Shown: positions 15,999-29,789 of the stretch, piece by piece
Layout: the number at the start of each line of letters is the position of its first letter
Numbering within the stretch: position 1 is the first letter of the stretch
Origin: Streptomyces sp. HUAS 15-9
GTDB lineage: Bacteria; Actinomycetota; Actinomycetes; Streptomycetales; Streptomycetaceae
NCBI RefSeq assembly: GCF_025642155.1
Contig: NZ_CP106798.1
Coordinates: forward strand, 6,076,001-6,140,000
Length of the DNA stretch: 64,000 nucleotides
Reading direction: 5' to 3'
The notes under the pieces: generated by a model
The model's input: only the letters and a program-made list of their open reading frames with translations
Databases searched by the model: none
What the model was told of the DNA's origin: nothing
Position numbers and translations under genes: made by a program

Positions 15999-16874
15999 AT
16001 GGTGGTGGTTCCGGAAGATCCGCACAGCCACTGGATCGTGCTCCTCGACATCGAGGACTTCAGTCTGCGCGCGGAGACCACCCAGGCGACGCTGCACGAC
16101 GACCTGTACCACGTGGTCGAGTTCGGGTTACGGCGGGCCGGGCTCGGCCTGGACGGATGCGAGGTGCAGGACCGCGGGGACGGCATGCTGCTGCTGGCCC
16201 CGCCGGACACCAGACCCACCCTGCTGCTCAGGGAGTTGGTGCGGGGCCTGGAGGACGCGCTGGTCCACCACCGGGACACCTACAACCACGACCACCGGAT
16301 GCGGCTGCGGGTCGGGTTCGAGCAGGGGCTGGTCAGCAGGCGCGGCGAGCGGTGGACCAGCAATGCCATCAACGACCTCTCCCGGCTGGTCGACGCCGGC
16401 CCTGTCAAGCAGGTGCTGGCCCGGGCCGGCCGGGCCCATCTGGTGGTGGTCGTCTCCGAGGACATCCACCGCAAGGTGGTGCTGGGCCGCTACCCGGGCA
16501 TCGACCCGGCGGCGTATCTGCCCGCCGACTTCGTCACCAAGCACGGCGAACCGCGCCGGGGCTGGGTCACCGTGCCCGGCTATCCGGCGCCACCAGGACT
16601 TCCCGCGGAATCGGGGGAGCCGCCACGTGGCAGAACGAGACCGGGGGCGGACCCCGGCACGGGCGGTACCGCGGGAGGAGCGGGCGGTGGGGCCGAACCG
16701 GGGAGCCCGGTCCTGCCGCCCTCACTCCACGTCGGCGATGTGACGCACGCTCAGATCGCCGTGGGGGAGGGGGCGATGGCCGTGGGCGGTGACTATGTGC
16801 ACGGCAACAAGATCGAGCATCACCACGGCTCCCGCGACGTACCCCACCGCGGCACCTCGGCGGACGGCTCATGA
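15999..16874 (+). CDS. Nucleotide-cyclase-like protein with C-terminal glycine-rich motif (first gene of the TerY-P-linked operon)
   Basis: About 291 residues. ATG 15999 is preferred over the upstream GTG because GGGGAGG lies 6 bases ahead of it. Residues 10-175 look like a class III nucleotide cyclase domain: LLDIEDFS (Asp17), RGDGMLLLAP (Asp61) and NAINDLSRLVDA match the two metal-binding aspartates and the helix that follows. The base-recognition residues cannot be confirmed, so activity is unproven. A Pro/Gly linker (about 190-240) leads to the C-terminal motif GGDYVHGNKIEHHHG, which resembles one near the start of the next gene. The gene has an in-frame TTA codon at 16128 (Leu44) and ends with an ATGA overlap. 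Confidence 0.72.
   Translation: MVVVPEDPHSHWIVLLDIEDFSLRAETTQATLHDDLYHVVEFGLRRAGLGLDGCEVQDRGDGMLLLAPPDTRPTLLLRELVRGLEDALVHHRDTYNHDHRMRLRVGFEQGLVSRRGERWTSNAINDLSRLVDAGPVKQVLARAGRAHLVVVVSEDIHRKVVLGRYPGIDPAAYLPADFVTKHGEPRRGWVTVPGYPAPPGLPAESGEPPRGRTRPGADPGTGGTAGGAGGGAEPGSPVLPPSLHVGDVTHAQIAVGEGAMAVGGDYVHGNKIEHHHGSRDVPHRGTSADGS
16128..16130 (+). other. TTA leucine codon (possible bldA control point)
   Basis: TTA is in frame, as codon 44 of the cyclase-like gene. In Streptomyces TTA is read by the bldA tRNA, which matures late in development, so translation of this gene and of the coupled genes downstream may depend on bldA. Confidence 0.75.
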
Positions 16875-17264
16875 CCACACCGCCCGCCCCCGCGCCGCCG
16901 CCCCTGCCCCCACCCCCACGACGACGGCGCCCACCGGGGGAGGGGCGCCGTCCCCGCAGGGCGCACCTCCGCCCGGCGGCGGCACACCGGGCAGGGCGGT
17001 GCCGCGGGCAGCGGCAACAGCGGCTCGCCCCAGCCCGGCACCGCAGGCGGCGCGGACGGCGGTACGCCCCAGCCTGGCGGCACACCCCAACCGGCGGCCC
17101 CCGACAACACCGTCGGCGGCAGCGACAGCGCCAGCCAGGCCACCGCCCGTACCGGACAGGGCAGTCTGCGCGCCGGGCTGCTGCGCACCGCCTGGACCCA
17201 CATCGGCGGCGACCGGGTCGAGGGCGACAAGATCGTCATCCATGCCGGGGGCGAACACCGTGTC
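16871..17264 (+). other. Frame-disrupted N-terminal part of the STAND-like NTPase
   Basis: An ATG overlaps the previous stop (ATGA, 16871) and opens a Pro/Ala-rich sequence. Codon bias and composition then move to the next frame around the C-run at 16906-16918, and again around the G-run near 16989, after which the frame is continuous with the NTPase. Adding one C and one G would give one unbroken Pro/Thr/Gly linker. In the final frame the segment encodes HIGGDRVEGDKIVIHAG just before 17265, which matches the motif ending the preceding protein. No ATG, GTG or TTG exists in the NTPase frame between 16875 and 17264. Confidence 0.6.
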
Positions 17265-19208
17265 GTGCTGCGCACCCTGGCCGCCATGGACGTGGAAGCC
17301 GTCCAGCACACCTTCCGGGCCCCGCCCCGCTGGGACGACGTCGTCGTCGACGCCTGGCAGCGCCGCTCGGTCGTACTGCGCGGCCCCGGCGGCGCGGGCA
17401 AGACCGCGGCCGCCGTACGCCTGCTGATATCCGCCCGGGCCAAGGCCTTCTATCTGATCGACTCGGTGGCCGAACTGACCCGGCTGACCGACCTCAGACA
17501 GATCGCCGGCGCCGGCCTGCTGCTCGACCGGCCCGTCGACCTCGGTCTGCTGCGCGGCCCCCAGCTGGCCGGCCTGGAGAGCCTGCTGCGGGACGCCGAC
17601 GCCCATGTCGTCGTGACCGCGGGACCGGAGGCCGAACTCGACCGCGACCTCGGCGAGTACGTGCAGCGCATCGCCCACCCCGAGGCCCTGGACACCGTGC
17701 TCGCCGCCCATCTCGCCCACCGGATCGGCGAATCGGAGGCCGAACTCGTCCTCGCCACGAACGGCGTCGCCGAACTCACCGCCGAACTCCTGGACCAGGG
17801 CGCCGCCTGCCGGATCGCCGCCCAGCTGGCCTGGATCCTCGAACAGGAACACCGCGACGGCGCCGTCGACCCGCGGCGGATCCGCTCCCGCATGGAACAG
17901 ACCGGCGGAGAGGGCCCCGAGGAGTGGTTCGAGGGACTCGGCGACATGGGACTGCGCACCCAGGCCATCGCCCTCGCCGTCCTCGGCGGACTGCCCCAGG
18001 AGTATGTCTCCCTGGCCGCGAGCTCCCTCCTCGACCGGTTCCGCAGCGACCGCGGCGTCCTTGCCGCCAGCGTCGAGCAAGGACCCGTACCGCTGCGCCA
18101 GGACCCCTTCAGCCAGTCCCGCCGGCAGTTCGCCGAGAAACTCCGGGCGCGCACCTACTCCGCCGTCACCCGGGGCGACTTCGGCTGGCTGCCGTGCACC
18201 GTCGCCGAGTACCGCAACCTCGAGTACCCGGCGCGGATCATCCGGCACGTCTGGTCGGAGTACCGCATCCAGCAGGAACTCGTCGCCTGGCTCGGCGAGT
18301 TGGTCGACCGGCCCTCCCAACAGGTGCGCAGCTTCGCCGGGACCGCGCTCGGTCTGATCGCCACCGAGTCCTTCGACCACATCGCCACCCAGATCTTCCC
18401 CGGCTGGGTCATGGACGAGGACACCGGCCCGCAGCGCCGCGAGGCCATCGCCTACGCCCTGCGCGTGTGCGCCCGCGACCCCGCGCTGCGCACCGGCGTG
18501 CGCAACCTCGTCGACGGCTGGTACATGAGCGGCACCTGGCAGTTCCAGGCCGCGGCCGCCCGCGCCCACGGCCTGTGCCTGGGCGGCGCCGACCTCCCGA
18601 CGGCCCTGCAGACCCTCACCCGGCTCGGCACCGTCGACCACATCCAGGTCGCCATCGAGATCGGCGACGCCTTCGCCGACCTGATGGAGGAGGACGTCGA
18701 CACCCACGCCCCCCTGGTGCTGCGCGCCATCGCCGAGATGTCGCACGAGCCCGCCAGCCGCCCCTCCGGCCACCTCGCGTTCCTCATCCTCGCCGACGCC
18801 CTGGCCACCGACGAGCCGGCGGCGGGCGGCGCCCCTCCGCGCAGCCGCCCCACCCTGCTCCGGCTGGCCGCCCAGGCCCCGCCCGGCGGCGAACTGCGCC
18901 GCCTGCTCGGCTATCTGTGGTCCGAGGCGATCGGCGGCGAACTCTTCGCCGACCAGGCAGGGACCGTGCTGGAGGCCTGGGCCGCCCAGGCCGAGGCCGA
19001 CCCCCAGCTCCTCGACGACCTGGTTCGCATCCTCGTGGAGGACGTGGCTGCGCGCAGTCCCCGGGCCGGAATGCTCCTGGAGCGCTACGCCCGGCACTGG
19101 ACCGACCGCGACCGCTTCCGCCCGCTGCCCCGCTCCGCCCGGGTCCTCGGCGCCCGACTGAACACCGCCCCGCCCGCCCGACCCACTCAGCCAGGAGGTG
19201 GCCGGTGA
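17265..19208 (+). CDS. STAND-like P-loop NTPase with helical-repeat C-terminus
   Basis: 647 residues from the first in-frame GTG; the real protein probably starts at 16871 (see the frame-disrupted segment). Walker A is GPGGAGKT (40-47). A short Walker B-like strand GLLLD ends at Asp88, and a sensor-like strand AHVVVTAGPE follows at about 114-123. After a winged-helix-like region, residues about 250-620 are rich in amphipathic helices in the manner of HEAT-like repeats. This is the layout of NLR-type signalling ATPases, in which repeats sense and the P-loop oligomerises. It ends with GTGA overlapping the next start, so it is coupled. The family assignment is by motif only. Confidence 0.7.
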   Translation: MLRTLAAMDVEAVQHTFRAPPRWDDVVVDAWQRRSVVLRGPGGAGKTAAAVRLLISARAKAFYLIDSVAELTRLTDLRQIAGAGLLLDRPVDLGLLRGPQLAGLESLLRDADAHVVVTAGPEAELDRDLGEYVQRIAHPEALDTVLAAHLAHRIGESEAELVLATNGVAELTAELLDQGAACRIAAQLAWILEQEHRDGAVDPRRIRSRMEQTGGEGPEEWFEGLGDMGLRTQAIALAVLGGLPQEYVSLAASSLLDRFRSDRGVLAASVEQGPVPLRQDPFSQSRRQFAEKLRARTYSAVTRGDFGWLPCTVAEYRNLEYPARIIRHVWSEYRIQQELVAWLGELVDRPSQQVRSFAGTALGLIATESFDHIATQIFPGWVMDEDTGPQRREAIAYALRVCARDPALRTGVRNLVDGWYMSGTWQFQAAAARAHGLCLGGADLPTALQTLTRLGTVDHIQVAIEIGDAFADLMEEDVDTHAPLVLRAIAEMSHEPASRPSGHLAFLILADALATDEPAAGGAPPRSRPTLLRLAAQAPPGGELRRLLGYLWSEAIGGELFADQAGTVLEAWAAQAEADPQLLDDLVRILVEDVAARSPRAGMLLERYARHWTDRDRFRPLPRSARVLGARLNTAPPARPTQPGGGR

Positions 19209-21088
19209 CCGAGCCGGTCTCATTGATCGTCAACCGGAGTCCGGTGCCCCGCATGGCGGTGGGGCCCACCAAGGCGACCCAGCCGCACCTGGCGGTCGTG
19301 TACGCCACCGCCGCCGGCGAGGTGGAGTGCTTCGAGGGCCGCCCGATGACCCCCTCGCAGCAGGTCTTCTCCAAGTACCGCACCCGCTACGAGGTCGATC
19401 TGCGCGGCTACCGGCGCAGCGCCGTCCTCGGCCGGAACCCGCTGGTCTCCCGGGACGGCGTGCACGCCTTCGAGGTGAAGGTCGACTTCGCCTTCCGCGT
19501 GGACGGCTGGGACGGCGCCAAGGCCCTGGTCCGCTCCGGCATCGACAACCCGCTGCCCCTGGTGCACACCTACCTCACCAGCCTGTTCCACGCCGCCGGA
19601 CAGCGCTTCGCCATCGAGGACTCCTTCGGCCTCCAGCACTACCTGGGCCAGCGGTGCGGACAGCAGGTGACCCTCGCCGAAGGGCTGGTCGTCTACGGCT
19701 GTCAGGTGTCGGTGCAGCCCGACGCCAAGTCCAAGGCCTACCTGGAGTCCCTGATCGAGGCGGGCCGCCGGGAGGCACTGGGCCAGGCCGAACACGTGCC
19801 CAACATGGGCGATGTGCTGCGCGAGGGGCAGATCGCGGCCAAGAAGCAGGAACAGGAGATGGAGGCCGCCGCCCGCCAGGCCGAGGCCCTCAGGCATGTC
19901 GCCATGGACAGCGAGGGCCTGATCCGGCAGTACATGAACACGCACCCGGAGGACGCCGCGGGCGCGTTCGACATGCTGCGCAAGCTGGAGGAGGCCCGTT
20001 TCGCCACCGCCGAACTGCAGAACCAGCGCGCGCTGGCCCTCTTCCAGGCGATGGCCGACAAGAACCTGGTCCAGGCCGGTGACCTGGAGGTGATGCGGCA
20101 GCTGCTGACCGACGTGGTCGGCCGCGCCACCGGCGGCGCAGCCCAGCTCCCCTCAGCCACCACCCCGCAGCTTCCCGGCGCCCGGCCCTGGGACGCCCCG
20201 GCCGCCCAGCTCCCCTCGGCGTCCACCGCCGGATCCGCCCAGACACAGACCCAGGCACCGCCGCCCCGGCCCGCGGACCAAGGGTCCGGCTTCGCTGGCC
20301 AGGGGCCCGGGTTCACCGGCCAAGGGCCCGGCTTCACCGTGCAAGGCGCCGGATTCACCGGCCAAGGCCCCGGGTCGACCGTCGTGGGCGACTCGCTCCC
20401 CCCGTACGCCGGACGGCCCGCCGTTCCCACCTACGCCGCCCTGATCTACCTGGTGCTCGACGAGTCCCTCGACCGCGACAGCCTGCAGGAGCTCAACCGC
20501 GGCCTGAACGACCTGCACGCCGCGCTCTCCGGCGCACCGGAGGTCGCCAGGTCCCTGCGGCTGTCCGTGCTCGGCATGGCCGCCACCGCGGAACCTCGCC
20601 TCCAGCTGGAGACCGTCACCCACGGCACCCGGACGCCCATCCTCACCGGCCGCCCGGGGCTGTCGTACAGCAGCGCCTTCCAGCTGCTGAAGACCGTCGT
20701 CGGACAGGACGTCGCCGTCGTCAAGGCCGAGGGCGTCCAGGTGCTGCGGCCGATCGTGTACTTCCTCACCGGCGGCGTCCCCGACGAGGGCAACGGCTGG
20801 CGCGAGGCCCATCAGCGGCTGACCGACACCGGCGGCAACCCGGCCGCGCCGAACGTGATCGCCCTCGGCCTCGGCCGGGCCGACGCCTTCGCGGTCCGTG
20901 CCGTCGCCACCCGGCCCGAGTTCGGCTTCATGGCACCGCCGAACCAGGACGCCGTGTCGGCCGCCCACAGCTGTGCCGGGTTCCTGCGCGACAGCGTCGT
21001 CGGCTACGCCCGGCGCCTCGCCTCCGGCGACCCGCAGTTCTCGGTCAACCCGCCCGACGGCTTCCGGCGGGCCGAGGACGCCTACTGA
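19205..21088 (+). CDS. SPFH/band-7-like protein fused to a degenerate vWA domain
   Basis: 627 residues. The GTG start follows an ideal AGGAGGTG site and overlaps the previous stop. Residues about 25-180 resemble an SPFH/band-7 domain. Residues 205-300 are charged and helical, probably coiled coil, as in flotillin-like scaffolds. Residues 360-392 are repeats of the type GFxGQGP. Residues 405-605 form a vWA domain similar to the next protein, but the metal site DxSxS is changed to DESLDRD (419-425). This second vWA is therefore probably a structural pseudo-domain. There is no transmembrane helix. It may be a scaffold that clusters the other components. Confidence 0.65.
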   Translation: MTEPVSLIVNRSPVPRMAVGPTKATQPHLAVVYATAAGEVECFEGRPMTPSQQVFSKYRTRYEVDLRGYRRSAVLGRNPLVSRDGVHAFEVKVDFAFRVDGWDGAKALVRSGIDNPLPLVHTYLTSLFHAAGQRFAIEDSFGLQHYLGQRCGQQVTLAEGLVVYGCQVSVQPDAKSKAYLESLIEAGRREALGQAEHVPNMGDVLREGQIAAKKQEQEMEAAARQAEALRHVAMDSEGLIRQYMNTHPEDAAGAFDMLRKLEEARFATAELQNQRALALFQAMADKNLVQAGDLEVMRQLLTDVVGRATGGAAQLPSATTPQLPGARPWDAPAAQLPSASTAGSAQTQTQAPPPRPADQGSGFAGQGPGFTGQGPGFTVQGAGFTGQGPGSTVVGDSLPPYAGRPAVPTYAALIYLVLDESLDRDSLQELNRGLNDLHAALSGAPEVARSLRLSVLGMAATAEPRLQLETVTHGTRTPILTGRPGLSYSSAFQLLKTVVGQDVAVVKAEGVQVLRPIVYFLTGGVPDEGNGWREAHQRLTDTGGNPAAPNVIALGLGRADAFAVRAVATRPEFGFMAPPNQDAVSAAHSCAGFLRDSVVGYARRLASGDPQFSVNPPDGFRRAEDAY

Positions 21089-21139
21089 TCCGTACCACCT
21101 CCCACGCAGTCAGTCCCACCACGCAAGAACGGAAAGACG

Positions 21140-21820
21140 ATGATGGAAAGCAATCGGGGGCACTTGCTCCCCATCTACGTCCTGGCCGACGAGTCGGGCT
21201 CGATGACCGAGCACATAGACGACCTCAACGACGGTCTGCGCTCACTGCACCAGGCGCTGCTCGGTGAACCGATGGCCGCGGCCAAGGTGCGCTTCTCGGT
21301 CCTGGGCTTCTCGGACGACGTGGTCGAACGGGTCCACCTGGTCGACCTGCGCAGCGCCAATGAGTTCCCACTGCTGCGCACCCGCGGCATGACCAGCTAC
21401 CTCGCCGCCTTCGAGGACCTGATCAACCGCATCCCGGGCGATGTCAACGCCCTCAAGAGCGAGGGCTACCAGGTGCACCGGCCCGCGGTGTTCTTCCTCA
21501 GCGACGGACTGCCCAACCACGGCGAGGACTGGCAGGACGCCCACCGCAGGCTCACCGACCGCTCGGTCACGCTCGGCGCGCCGAACATCATCGCGTGCGG
21601 CATCGTGGACGCCGACGCGCAGACCATCGACCAGGTGGCCACGGAACCGCAGTTCGGGTTCGTCGCCAACAAGGGCGTCGATGTGGGCGGTGCCATCGCG
21701 AAGTTCTGCACCGCTCTCACCAAGAGCGTGATCTCCTCGGGCCGTTCGCTGGGCTCGGCGTCCCCGCAGCTGGTGGTCGACAAGCCGGAAGGCTTCACCG
21801 TCGCGATCGATGTGATCTGA
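21140..21820 (+). CDS. TerY-like von Willebrand A domain protein
   Basis: 226 residues, almost entirely one vWA domain. The metal-ion-dependent adhesion site is complete: DESGS (17-21), Thr85 and Asp122 in FFLSDG. The protein resembles TerY of tellurite-resistance-linked systems, which acts with a PP2C phosphatase and a kinase (the TerY-P triad). ATG 21140 is used; ATG 21143 is spaced better from GGAAAG. The next gene begins one base after its stop. It is likely to be an adaptor whose partner binding is switched by phosphorylation. Confidence 0.85.
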   Translation: MMESNRGHLLPIYVLADESGSMTEHIDDLNDGLRSLHQALLGEPMAAAKVRFSVLGFSDDVVERVHLVDLRSANEFPLLRTRGMTSYLAAFEDLINRIPGDVNALKSEGYQVHRPAVFFLSDGLPNHGEDWQDAHRRLTDRSVTLGAPNIIACGIVDADAQTIDQVATEPQFGFVANKGVDVGGAIAKFCTALTKSVISSGRSLGSASPQLVVDKPEGFTVAIDVI

Positions 21821-21821
21821 C

Positions 21822-22093
21822 GTGACCTGGATTCCCAACCGGCACCCCGACGACGACCGGGAGGGGCAGCGGCCCGTGCCGCCGCCTCCCCGGCCCGCGC
21901 CCGACCTGTACCCGCAGCAACCGGCCGAGCCCTACGACCGGCCGGATCCGGCGGGCTCCTACGGCCACGACTGGCCGGTGGGCGGCCCTGGCCGCCCGTC
22001 GGCCGGCCCGCCCAGCCGCCCCCGCCCCCCGACCCGGCACCGGCTTCCGCCACCCGGTCCGACGCTTTCGCCGAGGGATGGCAGACGATCAGC
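21822..22093 (+). other. Frame-disrupted N-terminal linker of the PP2C phosphatase
   Basis: GTG 21822, one base after the vWA stop, opens a Pro-rich sequence that runs well to about 21995. The coding signal then moves to the frame of the phosphatase. One extra C in the run near 22010 would join them through a continuous proline-rich linker. Without it, translation would have to start at GTG 22094. Confidence 0.55.
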
Positions 22094-22957
22094 GTGGACG
22101 GCGCCGTTCCCGAGTTCGACCCGAGACCGCCGATCGGAGCCCTGTCGTACCGCCCCGACACCGTCTGCGACGGCTGGTCCACCGAGGCGCTCGACCTGCG
22201 GCTCGCCTCGGTGCGCGGCTATGCCCACCGGGCCGAGGGCCGGCCGCGGGAGGACGACGCGGCCGCGGCCTGGGACGAGCACACGCGCACCGTGGTGTTC
22301 GCCGTCGCCGACGGTGTCTCCGACGCCCGCCAGCCGCACATCGGCTCCCAGCTCGCCTGCCGCAGCGCGGTCGACGAGATGCTCGGGCAGGTGCGCGCGA
22401 GTGGCGGGTTCGTCACCGACTGGCCCAAGCTGCTGAGCACCGTCCACTGGCAGCTGCGGGTGCAGGCCCGCCGGCTGCTGCACCAGGAGGACGCCACCGT
22501 CGACGAGACGGCCGACCTGCTGGCCACCACGCTGGTCGCCGGGGCGGCCACGCCCACGCCGGCGGGGGTACGCGTGGCGCTGGTGTCGGTCGGCGACTCC
22601 GGGGTGTGGCTGATCAAGAACGGGGCGCTGTATCCGCTCCAGGGCGGCAAGACGGTCGGCGCGGACGGCCTGGTCTCCTCCGCCGTACGGCCCCTGCCGT
22701 ACGTTCCCGCCGAGGTCGTCCCGTTCGAGTACGTCCTGGAGCCGCCCTGTGTGCTGCTGATCGGCACGGACGGATTCGGTGACCCGGTCGGCGACGGGCG
22801 GGGCGTGGTGGCCCAGCTGCTCTGCCGTGAACTGGAGCGCCCGGTACCGCCGTTGGGCTTCGCCCATCTGCTCGACTTCTACCGGGAGACCTTTGACGAC
22901 GACCGCACGCTGGTGGCCCTGTGGCCGCGCGGGGGCGCGGCGGGGGGTCCGCGATGA
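22094..22957 (+). CDS. PP2C-type protein phosphatase
   Basis: 287 residues from GTG 22094; the true start is probably 21822. The PP2C metal-binding pattern is present: RPREDD (51-55), VADGVSD (71-77, the first metal Asp), VGDSGVW (166-172), GTDGFGD (224-230) and DDDRT (268-272). The enzyme removes phosphate from Ser/Thr and would oppose the kinase encoded immediately downstream, with which it shares an ATGA overlap. With the vWA gene before it, this forms the TerY-P triad. It has no membrane segment. Confidence 0.85.
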   Translation: MDGAVPEFDPRPPIGALSYRPDTVCDGWSTEALDLRLASVRGYAHRAEGRPREDDAAAAWDEHTRTVVFAVADGVSDARQPHIGSQLACRSAVDEMLGQVRASGGFVTDWPKLLSTVHWQLRVQARRLLHQEDATVDETADLLATTLVAGAATPTPAGVRVALVSVGDSGVWLIKNGALYPLQGGKTVGADGLVSSAVRPLPYVPAEVVPFEYVLEPPCVLLIGTDGFGDPVGDGRGVVAQLLCRELERPVPPLGFAHLLDFYRETFDDDRTLVALWPRGGAAGGPR

Positions 22958-24651
22958 GCGCGGTCACGGTGCCCTGGGTACTGCCGGACAAGCTGGGCAC
23001 CTACACCGGGCACCAGCTGGGCGACGGCGGGCAGGGCATCGTGTACGGGGTGCCCGACCCGCCGGGCAAGTTCGCGGGCGAGTATCTGGCGTACAAGGAG
23101 TACCGGCCGACGGAGGCGTACGACAGCGACGTCCTGTACGACATGGTGTGCTTCCGCCAGCTGCTGTCCCCGGCCGACCGTGCCTTCCTGGACGAGCGGC
23201 TGACCTGGCCGCTCGCCCTGGTCTACCTGGGCGACACCCCGACGGACCCCCGCCCGTCACGGAACCCGCGCAGCAGGGTCGTCGGCTTCCTCATGCGGCG
23301 CGTCACCCAGGACTACGAGCTGCGCATGCCGAGCGGCGAGGTGAAGCTGCAGGCGCTGGAGTTCCTGCTCAACTCGGACGCCTACATGACCCGGGTCGGC
23401 CTGTTCGTCGACGACGCGCACCGCGTGGAACTCCTGCTCGATCTGGCCCGCACCCTCGACTGGCTGCACCGGCGCGGGGTGATGGTGGGCGACCTCTCGC
23501 CGAAGAACGTCCTGTTCACCCTGCGGGGCCAGGCCCGCTGCCGGTTCATCGACTGCGACTCCATGCGCTACACCGGCAAGGACGTGCTTCAGCAGGTGGA
23601 GACCACCGGCTGGGAGGCGCCGGAGCCGGAGAAGGCCACGGTCGCCTCAGACTCGTGGAAGTTCGGTCTGCTCGCCGCACGGGTCTTCAACCGGGACCAG
23701 CACAGTCCCGACCTCGGCCCGCTGCGGGCCGTGTCCACCGAGCTCGCCCAGCTCGCCAGCCTCGCCCAGAGCCGCGATCCGCAGCGACGGCCGCCGATGT
23801 CCGACTGGCTGACCGCGCTGGAACTGGTGCACAACCGTGTCAAGCGGACCCGGCGCGCCACGGCGCACACCACGCAGCCGCCGGCCCCGACCCCGACGCC
23901 CGCGGGCCCCTACCGGCCCCAGCCCCAGCCGCAGCCGCAGCCGGTGTCCCCTCCCCAGGGGTTCACCTTCCCCACCCAGCCCCAGCCCCGCCGCCCGGCC
24001 CAGAGCGGCTCGATGGGCAACAGGGTGGCCGGCTGGCTGCTGGGCGCGGTCCTGGTGGGCGGCCTCGTCGGCTACGCGGCGACCCACATGGACTCCACGG
24101 ACGCCTCGGCGTCGGCATCCCCGGGCGGGCCCTCGGCGACGGCCACCGATGACGTGCACACCAGCGGTGACTCGGACGACGGCGTCAACACCCCGGACTC
24201 CGGCGAGGACACCCCGTCCGACCGGGCCGTGGCCCCCGGAGCCACCGTCGACTACTCCCAGGTCGCGGACGACCCCGAGGCCGAGGACGTGGCCACCATG
24301 TTCGCCCGCTTCTTCGGCGCGATCAACAAGCACGACTACGACACGGCCCTGGACCACTACGATCCCAGCACCTCGGTGGTGAACCTCGGCTCCACGTCGG
24401 CCCGGAACCAGTGGAAGGACGTCATGTCCACCACCCAGGACAGCGACTTCGTCCTGAGCGACCTGTCCTCGGACGGCACCTACACGCTGGCCACCCTGAA
24501 CTTCACCAGCCACCAGGACGCCGGATACGGCCCCGCCTCCAGCCCGTCCGACACCTGCGACCAGTGGACGATCACCTACCAGCTGACCGACTCGAGCGGC
24601 TACCGGATCTACAAGGCGCCCAGGGACGGGGTGAGTTACACCTCCTGCTGA
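22954..24651 (+). CDS. Membrane-anchored Ser/Thr kinase with extracellular NTF2-like domain
   Basis: About 565 residues; ATG 22954 overlaps the phosphatase stop. The kinase domain covers about 15-300: glycine loop LGDGGQGIVYG (22-32), Lys48 in AYKEY, a catalytic loop VGDLSPKNVLF with Asp180 and Asn185 in place of HRD, and the metal site IDCDS with Asp200 in place of DFG. These variants are typical of the divergent kinases of TerY-P systems. A Pro/Gln linker, one transmembrane helix (358-377) and an acidic linker follow. The last about 130 residues look like an NTF2-like fold outside the membrane, a possible sensor. It closes the six-gene operon. Confidence 0.85.
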   Translation: MSAVTVPWVLPDKLGTYTGHQLGDGGQGIVYGVPDPPGKFAGEYLAYKEYRPTEAYDSDVLYDMVCFRQLLSPADRAFLDERLTWPLALVYLGDTPTDPRPSRNPRSRVVGFLMRRVTQDYELRMPSGEVKLQALEFLLNSDAYMTRVGLFVDDAHRVELLLDLARTLDWLHRRGVMVGDLSPKNVLFTLRGQARCRFIDCDSMRYTGKDVLQQVETTGWEAPEPEKATVASDSWKFGLLAARVFNRDQHSPDLGPLRAVSTELAQLASLAQSRDPQRRPPMSDWLTALELVHNRVKRTRRATAHTTQPPAPTPTPAGPYRPQPQPQPQPVSPPQGFTFPTQPQPRRPAQSGSMGNRVAGWLLGAVLVGGLVGYAATHMDSTDASASASPGGPSATATDDVHTSGDSDDGVNTPDSGEDTPSDRAVAPGATVDYSQVADDPEAEDVATMFARFFGAINKHDYDTALDHYDPSTSVVNLGSTSARNQWKDVMSTTQDSDFVLSDLSSDGTYTLATLNFTSHQDAGYGPASSPSDTCDQWTITYQLTDSSGYRIYKAPRDGVSYTSC

Positions 24652-24654
24652 CCC

Positions 24655-25392
24655 TCACCCGCCGAAGGCCTGCGCCTTCAGCTGATCCACCGCCCGGATC
24701 GACAGGTACTGACGCCCCGTCACCACCCATCCTCTGCCTCGCCATTGCTCCAGCACACGGCTCACCGTGCGCCGGGAGGTCAGCAGCAGGCCGGCCAGGT
24801 CGTCCTGGGACAGGGCGAGGGCGAGACGGCGGCCGGTGCCGTCCGGCTCCGGCATGCCGCACCGCTCCACGAGGTCGAGCAGGAGCGCGGCGAGCCGGGC
24901 GGGCACCGGCTCGGTGATGCCGACGCGCTGGAGATCGGCCTCGCGCAGCCGCCGCGACAGGGTCTGTTCCAGGGAGGCGGCGATGCCCGGCCGGGCGCGG
25001 GCGAGGACGTGGAAGCGGGTGGCGGGCAGCTGCAGCAGTTCGGCCGGGGTCGCCGTGACGAGCGAGGCCGAGCGCCGCCCGCTCTCCACCGAGGCCTGTT
25101 CGCCCAGGAGTTCGCCGGGACCGCGCAGCGCGAGCAGGGCCCGATACCCGGCGTGCGACTGGGCGATCACCTTGACCCAGCCGCGCACCAGCACGACCAG
25201 ATGGTCCGAGTCCTCGCCCTGCGTCAGGAACTGCCGCTCGGCCGCCACCACGACCCGGGTCGCCGCCCGGAGCACCGCGGCCCGGTCATCGGCGTCGAGC
25301 GCCTCCCAGAAGGGGGCGGGGCGAAGACCCACGGCGGTCAGCCCAACGGCCGTACGGCCAGGGACCCAAGTGCGGACGCCCACCGCGCCCAC
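24655..25392 (-). CDS. Crp/Fnr family transcriptional regulator
   Basis: 245 residues as given. An N-terminal cyclic-nucleotide-binding-type beta barrel (about 30-150) contains RGPGELLGEQASV, where the phosphate-binding cassette would be. The second half is a Crp winged helix with LSQDDLAGLLLTSRRTVSRVL. It is convergent with the kinase gene, with three bases between the stops. The start is uncertain: GTG 25392 lacks a ribosome site, whereas ATG 25427 has a strong GGGAGGA site but in the neighbouring frame, which hints at a single-base error between the two. A link to the cyclase-like gene in the adjacent operon is tempting but unproven. Confidence 0.85.
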   Translation of the reverse strand: MGAVGVRTWVPGRTAVGLTAVGLRPAPFWEALDADDRAAVLRAATRVVVAAERQFLTQGEDSDHLVVLVRGWVKVIAQSHAGYRALLALRGPGELLGEQASVESGRRSASLVTATPAELLQLPATRFHVLARARPGIAASLEQTLSRRLREADLQRVGITEPVPARLAALLLDLVERCGMPEPDGTGRRLALALSQDDLAGLLLTSRRTVSRVLEQWRGRGWVVTGRQYLSIRAVDQLKAQAFGG

Positions 25393-26559: not shown

Positions 26560-26667
26560 AGGCCGGACGGGCCTTCGCCGGGAGCCGAGGACGTGGTCAT
26601 GCAGCGATTTCAGAACTCTTGTTATTGAGGTGGGGTGACACGAACGCGCTGGTCAGGGCCTACTTCC

Positions 26668-28035
<1,368 letters not shown>

Positions 28036-28134
28036 GGTGACTCCTCAGTACGGGGGTGGTGCGAAGGGGTGGGGCACCGCGCCCACGGAAGAAACGTGCG
28101 CTTCCAGTGTGCGCGGTGCCCGCGCCGGGGTGAA

Positions 28135-29397
<1,263 letters not shown>

Positions 29398-29411
29398 ACG
29401 TCTACGACTCC

Positions 29412-29789
29412 TCAGCCGGCGGTGTGGGCGGCGTACTCGTCGGCGGAGAGCAGGTCGGCCGGCTCGTCCGCGACGCGCACCTTGAACAGCCAGCCGCCCT
29501 CGAAGGGGGCCGAGTTCACCAGGGAGGGGTCGTTGACGACGTCCTCGTTGATCTCGGTGACCTCACCCGTGACCGGCGAGTACAGGTCGGAGACCGACTT
29601 CGTGGACTCCAGCTCGCCGCAGGACTCGCCCGCGGTGACCGTGGAGCCGACCTCGGGGAGCTGGGCGTAGACGACATCGCCGAGCGCGTTGGCCGCGAAC
29701 TCGGTGATGCCGACCGTCGAGACGCCGTCCTCGGCGCCCGACAGCCACTCGTGCTCCTTGCTGTAGCGCAGCTGCTGGGGGTTGCTCAT
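29412..29789 (-). CDS. gcvH: Glycine cleavage system H protein
   Basis: 125 residues, the lipoyl carrier that shuttles the aminomethyl group between the P, T and L proteins. Lys64 in [15 protein letters not shown] is the lipoylated residue, in the standard lipoyl-domain hairpin. The length and fold are normal. It is second in the operon after gcvT. The P protein (gcvP) is not in the window, so it must be encoded elsewhere. Confidence 0.97.

Follow-up and report, generated by a model that had tools for sequence, protein, structure and literature searches.

A candidate Pycsar-like cyclic-nucleotide signalling cassette combining a STAND-like protein with a vWA-PP2C-kinase triad in Streptomyces sp. 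HUAS 15-9

Organization of the locus

We have analysed a window of 64,000 nucleotides (C1:6076001-6140000) from the 9.6-Mb genome of Streptomyces sp. HUAS 15-9, which is assembled in three contigs, and describe here a cluster of six tightly coupled open reading frames (ORFs) on its + strand (positions 15999-24651 of the window) that encode, in this order, a class III nucleotidyl cyclase-like protein, a STAND-like NTPase, a fusion of an SPFH and a vWA domain (SPFH-vWA), a stand-alone vWA protein, a PP2C-type phosphatase and a Ser/Thr kinase (Table 1). A preliminary description of this DNA, made from the letters alone, had given the same gene order with overlaps of 4 bp or gaps of at most 51 bp, and both are borne out. 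Its domain calls hold as well: the cyclase by profile, the STAND protein by weak Pfam matches and fold, the SPFH and vWA domains by fold, and the phosphatase and kinase by Pfam.

Table 1. Features of the cluster, in window coordinates
Feature	Position	Strand	Basis	Junction with the next gene
Class III nucleotidyl cyclase-like protein, with proline/glycine-rich linker and C-terminal motif	15999..16874	+	Family profile match and residues	ATGA overlap (4 bp) at 16871, read from the sequence
Cyclase C-terminal motif VGGDYVHGNKIEHH	16782..16823	+	By pattern	
STAND-like P-loop NTPase with HEAT-type repeats	16871..19208	+	Weak Pfam matches and fold; start 16871 by homology	GTGA overlap (4 bp) at 19205
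Frame break(s) in GC-rich linker of STAND gene; relatives keep one frame	16880..16990	+		
STAND N-terminal motif IGGDRVEGDKIVIH, paired with the cyclase motif	17202..17243	+		
SPFH domain (~19223-20119), proline/glycine linker and vWA domain with degenerate metal ion-dependent adhesion site (MIDAS) (~20429-21085)	19205..21088	+	AlphaFold model and Foldseek	51-bp gap; vWA starts at 21140
Stand-alone vWA protein, intact MIDAS	21140..21820	+	PF00092, E value 2e-4	1-bp gap; PP2C start GTG 21822
PP2C-type phosphatase, disordered N-terminus; frame break ~21950-22010	21822..22957	+	PP2C_2, E 2e-17	ATGA overlap (4 bp) at 22954
Ser/Thr kinase with transmembrane helix (by eye) and SnoaL/NTF2-like C-terminal region (weak)	22954..24651	+	Pfam	
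Crp/Fnr-like cyclic mononucleotide-binding transcription regulator, convergent	24655..25392	-	Pfam	

All six genes are present as first read, but the STAND and PP2C frames are broken in the window copy. The STAND body has no ATG, GTG or TTG in frame before 17265, and the start used by the relatives (ATG 16871) lies in another frame; in the relatives the STAND start codon overlaps the cyclase stop and is followed by one continuous frame. The PP2C N-terminus read from GTG 21822 is homologous to that of the relatives, and the frame switches before ~22010. Both breaks fall in linkers of high GC content, for which reason sequencing error and decay are equally likely, and we left the two frames unmended.

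Distribution and genomic context

Scanning GTDB genomes with an alignment of SPFH-vWA proteins returned 43 loci, of which 18 hold SPFH-vWA (L044 its tail alone). The other 25 hold only the vWA and PP2C genes, with a kinase match in 21; they were rejected as members, as none of the 25 has a match for the cyclase, STAND, SPFH, Crp or PycTM. The 18 loci, together with L078 and L079 from a separate genome search, make up 20 window-type relatives, the two sources possibly overlapping in species. They come from Streptomyces, Kitasatospora, a Pseudonocardiales metagenome-assembled genome, Actinoplanes and Dactylosporangium (same-genus genomes being taken to be Streptomyces). All six genes occur in the same order on one strand in 14/20 relatives (13 by tblastn, and L056, whose divergent SPFH part was read by eye), more often than expected by chance, so that the cluster is conserved as a unit; a lack of such conservation, which would have refuted the preliminary description, is thus not observed. 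Contig ends cut four relatives (L027, L030, L032 and L044). Outside these counts, L008 and L009, two short loci found in a different family of the order, carry STAND, SPFH-vWA and vWA genes in a row. The distribution is patchy: among 40 other same-genus genomes the window-type STAND protein gave a strong match in two and a weak one in one more.

The cluster's neighbours in the window are genes for NAGidase, GH25, serine dehydratase, SHMT and glycine cleavage, and nothing defence-like by Pfam name was found among the 14 flanking ORFs scanned (window to ~31 kb). A GH25 neighbour is present in 10/19 window-type loci searched, the window included and L078 and L079 lying outside this search. A 1011-aa + strand ORF at 26635-29670, antisense to the serine dehydratase and SHMT genes, is probably a high-GC artefact.

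Domains and active sites of the six proteins

The top matches of the cyclase family profile are solved class III cyclases (3mr7, E 6e-4; Ma1120, E 3e-3; the adenylate cyclase 1wc0, E 0.09). Both metal-binding Asp residues and the Arg are conserved in all 15 main cyclase copies and the Asn in 14 of them, and the enzyme is predicted to be catalytically competent. The window cyclase has no Pfam or PADLOC match, and the family as a whole gave two chance-level Pfam matches. Position D-4, a Lys in adenylyl cyclases, is occupied by Q in 11, E in three and L in one of the 15 copies. Two relatives have, downstream of the main six genes, a second cyclase-like copy devoid of metal ligands (L031:15484-16962; L033:15633-17114), each followed by a second kinase.

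The STAND protein has the P-loop GPGGAGKT in the window. Pfam gave nSTAND3 matches below the cut-off in 12/16 members and HEAT_2 in 7/16, and the structural model (pLDDT 80) matches SAMD9, Avs4 and Avs5 with E values of 6e-6 to 6e-5 and low TM-scores, among mixed AAA+ matches. The weak sequence matches and the moderate fold evidence point to a STAND-like protein with repeats. A match to the DS41 model, partial or far below the curated cut-off, was taken as a shared fold.

For SPFH-vWA almost nothing was found by Pfam; Death effector domain matches (E 0.04-0.09) were below the cut-off and taken as chance. A PDB sequence search with the SPFH alignment gave nothing usable, but structure comparison did: Foldseek matched the AlphaFold model (pLDDT 76) to complexes of prohibitin (E 1e-6) and of erlin (E 2e-5) as well as to vWA domains (E 1e-7), and these matches probably correspond to the N- and C-terminal halves, respectively, the output giving no ranges. 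The distal MIDAS Asp of the fused vWA domain is replaced in 17/17 loci, whereas the stand-alone vWA, whose PF00092 match is just under the cut-off, keeps all MIDAS residues tested (DxSxS, T, D) in 17/17. The catalytic Asp set of the phosphatase is likewise found in 17/17 loci, and the catalytic K, D, N and D of the kinase (Pkinase E 7e-7, just under the Pfam cut-off) in 16/16. Beyond its transmembrane helix the kinase has a C-terminal region with a weak SnoaL_2 match (E 7e-3); its matches to MADS6, MkoA and lanthionine synthetase models, partial or far below the curated cut-offs, were taken as shared folds. In one locus (L041:6063-9602) a vWA-PP2C-kinase triad that closely resembles that of the window (vWA 81% identical) is immediately preceded by a gene for a CHAT-domain protein, which suggests that the triad is reused with other partners.

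Genes for cyclic mononucleotide readers

The convergent gene directly 3' of the kinase encodes a Crp-like protein with a cyclic mononucleotide (cNMP)-binding domain (cNMP_binding, E 2e-13) and a DNA-binding domain (HTH_Crp_2, E 6e-15). A Crp gene was found by tblastn in 18/21 SPFH-vWA loci, the window included; L039 ends before the position concerned, and L043 and L069 gave no match. The cNMP phosphate-binding motif (GE..RSA/RTA) is present in 18/18 window-type Crp proteins. The unit extends past position 24651, where the preliminary description had let it end, and includes this gene.

By the same method, PycTM, an effector known from Pycsar, was found after it in 11/21 SPFH-vWA loci, with profile support in L040 (Pfam E 2e-17, PADLOC E 1e-36) and L029 (Pfam E 6e-16), and not in the window, L027, L028, L032, L037, L044, L079, L039, L043 and L069. 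Neither Crp nor PycTM was found in any of the 25 triad-only loci, several of which are short. Both genes are kept in L038, L040 and L056, where no NAGidase or GH25 neighbour was found, which suggests that they are parts of the system and not bystanders. The presence of genes for a Crp reader and, in relatives, a PycTM effector makes cyclic-nucleotide signalling the likely output.

Elsewhere in the same genome (G000:C1 ~2.618 Mb; L073:5841-8272), a CATRA-N/C protein that also matches the cyclase (28%, E 3e-10) overlaps a PycTM gene; from their sequences the two form a further candidate cNMP pair.

Compact relatives without the triad

The genome also carries a PycTM gene at 5.147 Mb, after a Crp-cyclase-STAND-SPFH run between rpoC and rpsL. 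This triad-free block (G000:C1 ~5.1461-5.1536 Mb; L072:6103-13591, - strand) includes in addition an M48-type peptidase-like gene, identified by eye. At E 1e-5 the triad-free STAND protein was matched in 28/61 genomes including this one (27/60 others). The 19 triad-free loci considered here are the genome's own and those in regions fetched from 18 of the other 27 genomes with a match; from the remaining nine come short loci that cover the array in part. In 19/19 loci the genes for Crp, cyclase, STAND and SPFH are collinear, and PycTM is matched in 11/19, three of these matches being weak. The loci split into 11 close ones, 10 of which lie between rpoC and rpsL (the site is occupied likewise in 9/18 other fetched regions), and eight of a third, more distant group, near which neither rpoC nor rpsL was found. 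The close cyclases keep the catalytic residues in 11/11 loci, and the phosphate-binding pattern of Crp is present in 10/11. The existence of these compact relatives suggests that the triad is an add-on and not the core of the system.

The two types also differ in their STAND proteins. The Walker A Lys is intact in 18/20 window-type proteins (window included, L044 not covered) versus 0/19 triad-free ones, which suggests a link between NTP competence and the triad-bearing type. The window-type exceptions are L039 and L043; L069 keeps the Lys with no triad alongside.

A motif shared by the cyclase and the STAND protein

A short Gly-rich motif is common to the C-terminus of the cyclase and the N-terminus of the STAND protein. 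In the window the pair is VGGDYVHGNKIEHH and IGGDRVEGDKIVIH; in the Actinoplanes locus L043 it is HGDQVGGDKT (cyclase) and RGDQVGGDKL (STAND), and in L091 both proteins carry GGDQHGVSGGQVTG. In the close triad-free loci the pairing beats all 300 composition shuffles in 12/12 cases by two methods, gapped and ungapped (L083, with its cyclase cut by the contig, was dropped, and L097 and L106, with a piece of the cyclase, were left out). Of the seven pairs tested in the third group, one (L101) beat all 300 shuffles in the gapped comparison. In the ungapped comparison of the window type, at most 1/300 shuffles scored as high in three pairs (L035, L039 and L043), and the best segment is the motif itself in 8/17; the window's own pairing was equalled by 0/300 gapped shuffles. 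By pattern, the motif is found in 16/17 window-type cyclases (not in L069) and 17/17 STAND proteins against a background of 5/596 proteins, figures that are illustrative only, as the pattern was drawn from the same sequences and is circular. The paired motif is decisive in the close triad-free versions, and conserved but statistically weak in the window type.

Discussion

Gene order, its conservation, the identity of the domains, the catalytic residues, the genes for cNMP readers and the paired motif are directly supported. On this basis we propose, with a probability of about one half, that the locus is a Pycsar-like cNMP signalling cassette in which an NLR-like (NOD-like receptor-like) STAND receptor switches a cyclase and a TerY-P-like triad has been added as a gate. 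In this scheme, the STAND protein, with its P-loop and HEAT-type repeats, would sense a trigger or be restrained by its partners; once activated, it would oligomerise and expose its Gly/Asp-rich N-terminal motif, which would pair with, and probably template, the C-terminal motif of the cyclase, so that cyclase chains join as an active dimer. The neighbouring Crp-like regulator would read the resulting cyclic mononucleotide, and so would the membrane effector PycTM in roughly half of the relatives. SPFH-vWA may form a ring- or cage-like scaffold gathering the complex, and the triad may set its threshold, the membrane kinase phosphorylating and the PP2C resetting, probably via the MIDAS vWA. Amyloid-type templating, the direction of the signal, the role of phosphorylation and a function in immunity or programmed cell death are what we infer beyond the gene content. 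An antiphage function is plausible from the sequence: PycTM, the STAND fold and the patchy distribution suggest defence, a suggestion weakened by the fixed sites and ordinary neighbours.

The cassette resembles several known systems and coincides with none of those compared. With Pycsar, as presented in the part of the literature considered (PMC11224242), it has in common a class III cyclase, PycTM in 11/21 loci and, in Crp, a reader of the CNBD type, like the sensor domain of PycTIR; it differs in that its cyclase matches no PADLOC PycC model, that the STAND, SPFH-vWA and kinase module are extra and that the window has no PycTM. Matched motifs on the C-termini of effectors and the N-termini of neighbouring NLRs are given as a hallmark of bacterial amyloid signalling motifs in the sections drawn on here (PMC7889193, PMC9815663), and the adjacent actinobacterial genes with a Gly-rich motif at these two ends match the layout of amyloid NLR signalosomes (also PMC8086366). 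The effector, however, is here a nucleotidyl cyclase instead of the Bell, CHAT or TIR effectors of the passages cited, and the Walker A Lys of the STAND protein is lost in the triad-free versions.

The preliminary description had recognised a TerY-P triad. A MIDAS vWA, a catalytic PP2C and a catalytic Ser/Thr kinase do stand in a row with their residues kept, as in TerY-P systems (PMC11090510), but the kinase tail is transmembrane and SnoaL/NTF2-like and lacks the zinc ribbon or OB-fold that the cited account attributes to TerY-P, and a classical TerY-P assignment was rejected for this reason. Actinobacterial kinases, sometimes with transmembrane helices, linked to PP2C and stand-alone vWA genes have been described beside GTPase/GAP1 genes (the GAP1-N2 theme; Kaur et al. 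2020, PMC7159879, in the portion used here); here such a module accompanies cyclase, STAND and SPFH genes instead. The present array is not described in that portion, which does mention vWA components of MoxR systems that contain cyclase and Band 7 domains. The VMAP/iSTAND ternary systems that the same source treats repeatedly feature vWA, cNMP cyclase and Band 7 domains, together with inactive STAND proteins; in our case these domains lie on separate polypeptides. An assignment to the ternary systems was rejected, since neither the six genes nor the 14 flanking ORFs scanned in the window include a MoxR AAA+ gene. A literature search (largely open-access papers, bioRxiv excluded) found no description of the combination of triad, cyclase, STAND and SPFH. 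The earlier reading, in which a phosphorylation module goes together with NLR-like, cyclase and SPFH proteins, thus stands in outline, although it missed Crp, PycTM, the triad-free relatives and the paired motif.

Several observations weigh against the proposed scheme. PADLOC PycC models match neither any of the seven cyclases searched (window, L038, L039, L069, L072, L040 and L029) nor the CATRA-cyclase of L073, and an assignment to Pycsar through cyclase models was rejected. PycTM was not found at the window's locus, and the window copy is frame-broken in two genes. Two of the 20 relatives do not follow the six-gene order: in L043 the kinase gene is reversed, and L069 has no triad alongside. 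Among the window-type STAND proteins, those of L028, L043 and L069 have lost the Walker A Thr, and 3/18 (L039, L043 and L069) the Walker B Asp. All eight third-group cyclases have another residue in place of the Asn, L126 also lacking the metal ligands, and the phosphate-binding motif of Crp was found in 3/8 loci of this group. As for the paired motif, the gapped comparison yields at most 1/300 shuffles in only 5/17 window-type pairs, and the window's own pairing is equalled by 6/300 ungapped shuffles, because the linkers are rich in Pro, Gly and Ala, which confounds whole-tail alignment. The control, in which the tails were compared with the linker of the fused SPFH-vWA, gave 7/300 in L028 and L038 and at least 47 in the other loci tested. 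Moreover, the STAND protein of the same locus is the best match for only 8/36 cyclase tails, related loci scoring alike, so that no partner specificity is seen. Finally, the fixed chromosomal sites and ordinary neighbours speak against a mobile defence element.

This last point is the strength of a quite different, and in our view realistic if tentative, explanation, in which the genes form a housekeeping or developmental cNMP cassette: the cyclase and Crp would run a stress or morphogenesis regulon, the SPFH protein and the membrane kinase would report the state of the envelope and PycTM would act as an ion-leak valve. Such a role would suit the fixed rpoC-rpsL site of 10/11 close triad-free loci, the genes that flank the cluster in the window (NAGidase, GH25, serine dehydratase, SHMT, glycine cleavage), none of the 14 flanking ORFs scanned being defence-like by Pfam name, the GH25 neighbour common to 10/19 window-type loci searched and the fact that the most constant reader is a transcription factor. 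It sits less well with the patchy distribution of both STAND types (2/40 genomes and one weak match; 27/60 genomes) and with the PycTM effector, the STAND fold and the matched receptor and effector motifs, which are features of conflict systems. A stronger version of our own proposal, in which the NLR-like STAND protein switches the cyclase by prion-like templating of the shared motif, the triad of the window gating an ATP-competent receptor and a pseudo-NTPase taking its place in the triad-free relatives, is doubtful, and we have lowered its odds slightly because partner specificity was not seen at the level of loci.

The frame breaks raise the separate question of whether the window copy is a decaying remnant of a system intact only in its relatives, for which the lack of PycTM also speaks; we consider this unlikely, since the breaks lie in GC- and homopolymer-rich linkers, where sequencing indels are presumably common, the genes with catalytic or MIDAS residues have retained them and the coding-type bias in GC content by codon position is found in 5/6 genes, the sixth, SPFH-vWA, being absent from that listing because its frame stays open across the STAND gene. 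Least probable is a membrane-sensed TerY-P phosphorylation switch with the SPFH-vWA/NTPase complex as output and the cyclase-like protein as a non-catalytic adaptor. The transmembrane kinase with its additional C-terminal region, the invariance, in the 16-17 aligned loci, of the catalytic residues of kinase and PP2C and of the MIDAS residues of the vWA, the loss of metal ligands in the extra cyclase copies of L031 and L033 and that of the Asn in the third group would all fit such a switch; yet the metal ligands are intact in 15/15 copies of the main cyclase, and the cNMP-reader genes go with the cyclase, whether a triad is there or not, and were not found in the 25 triad-only loci.

If the Pycsar-like scheme is correct, it would join amyloid NLR signalosomes and cyclic-nucleotide alarms, two currencies of bacterial innate immunity that are usually treated apart, with a eukaryote-like kinase/phosphatase gate. 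Orphan class III cyclases and Crp paralogues of actinobacteria would gain a testable candidate trigger, and the scheme would offer a reading for the gene block located between rpoC and rpsL in 10/19 triad-free loci. The triad-bearing type, with its mostly intact Walker A Lys, and the triad-free type, which has lost it, would then constitute a natural contrast for separating the roles of ATP and of phosphorylation.

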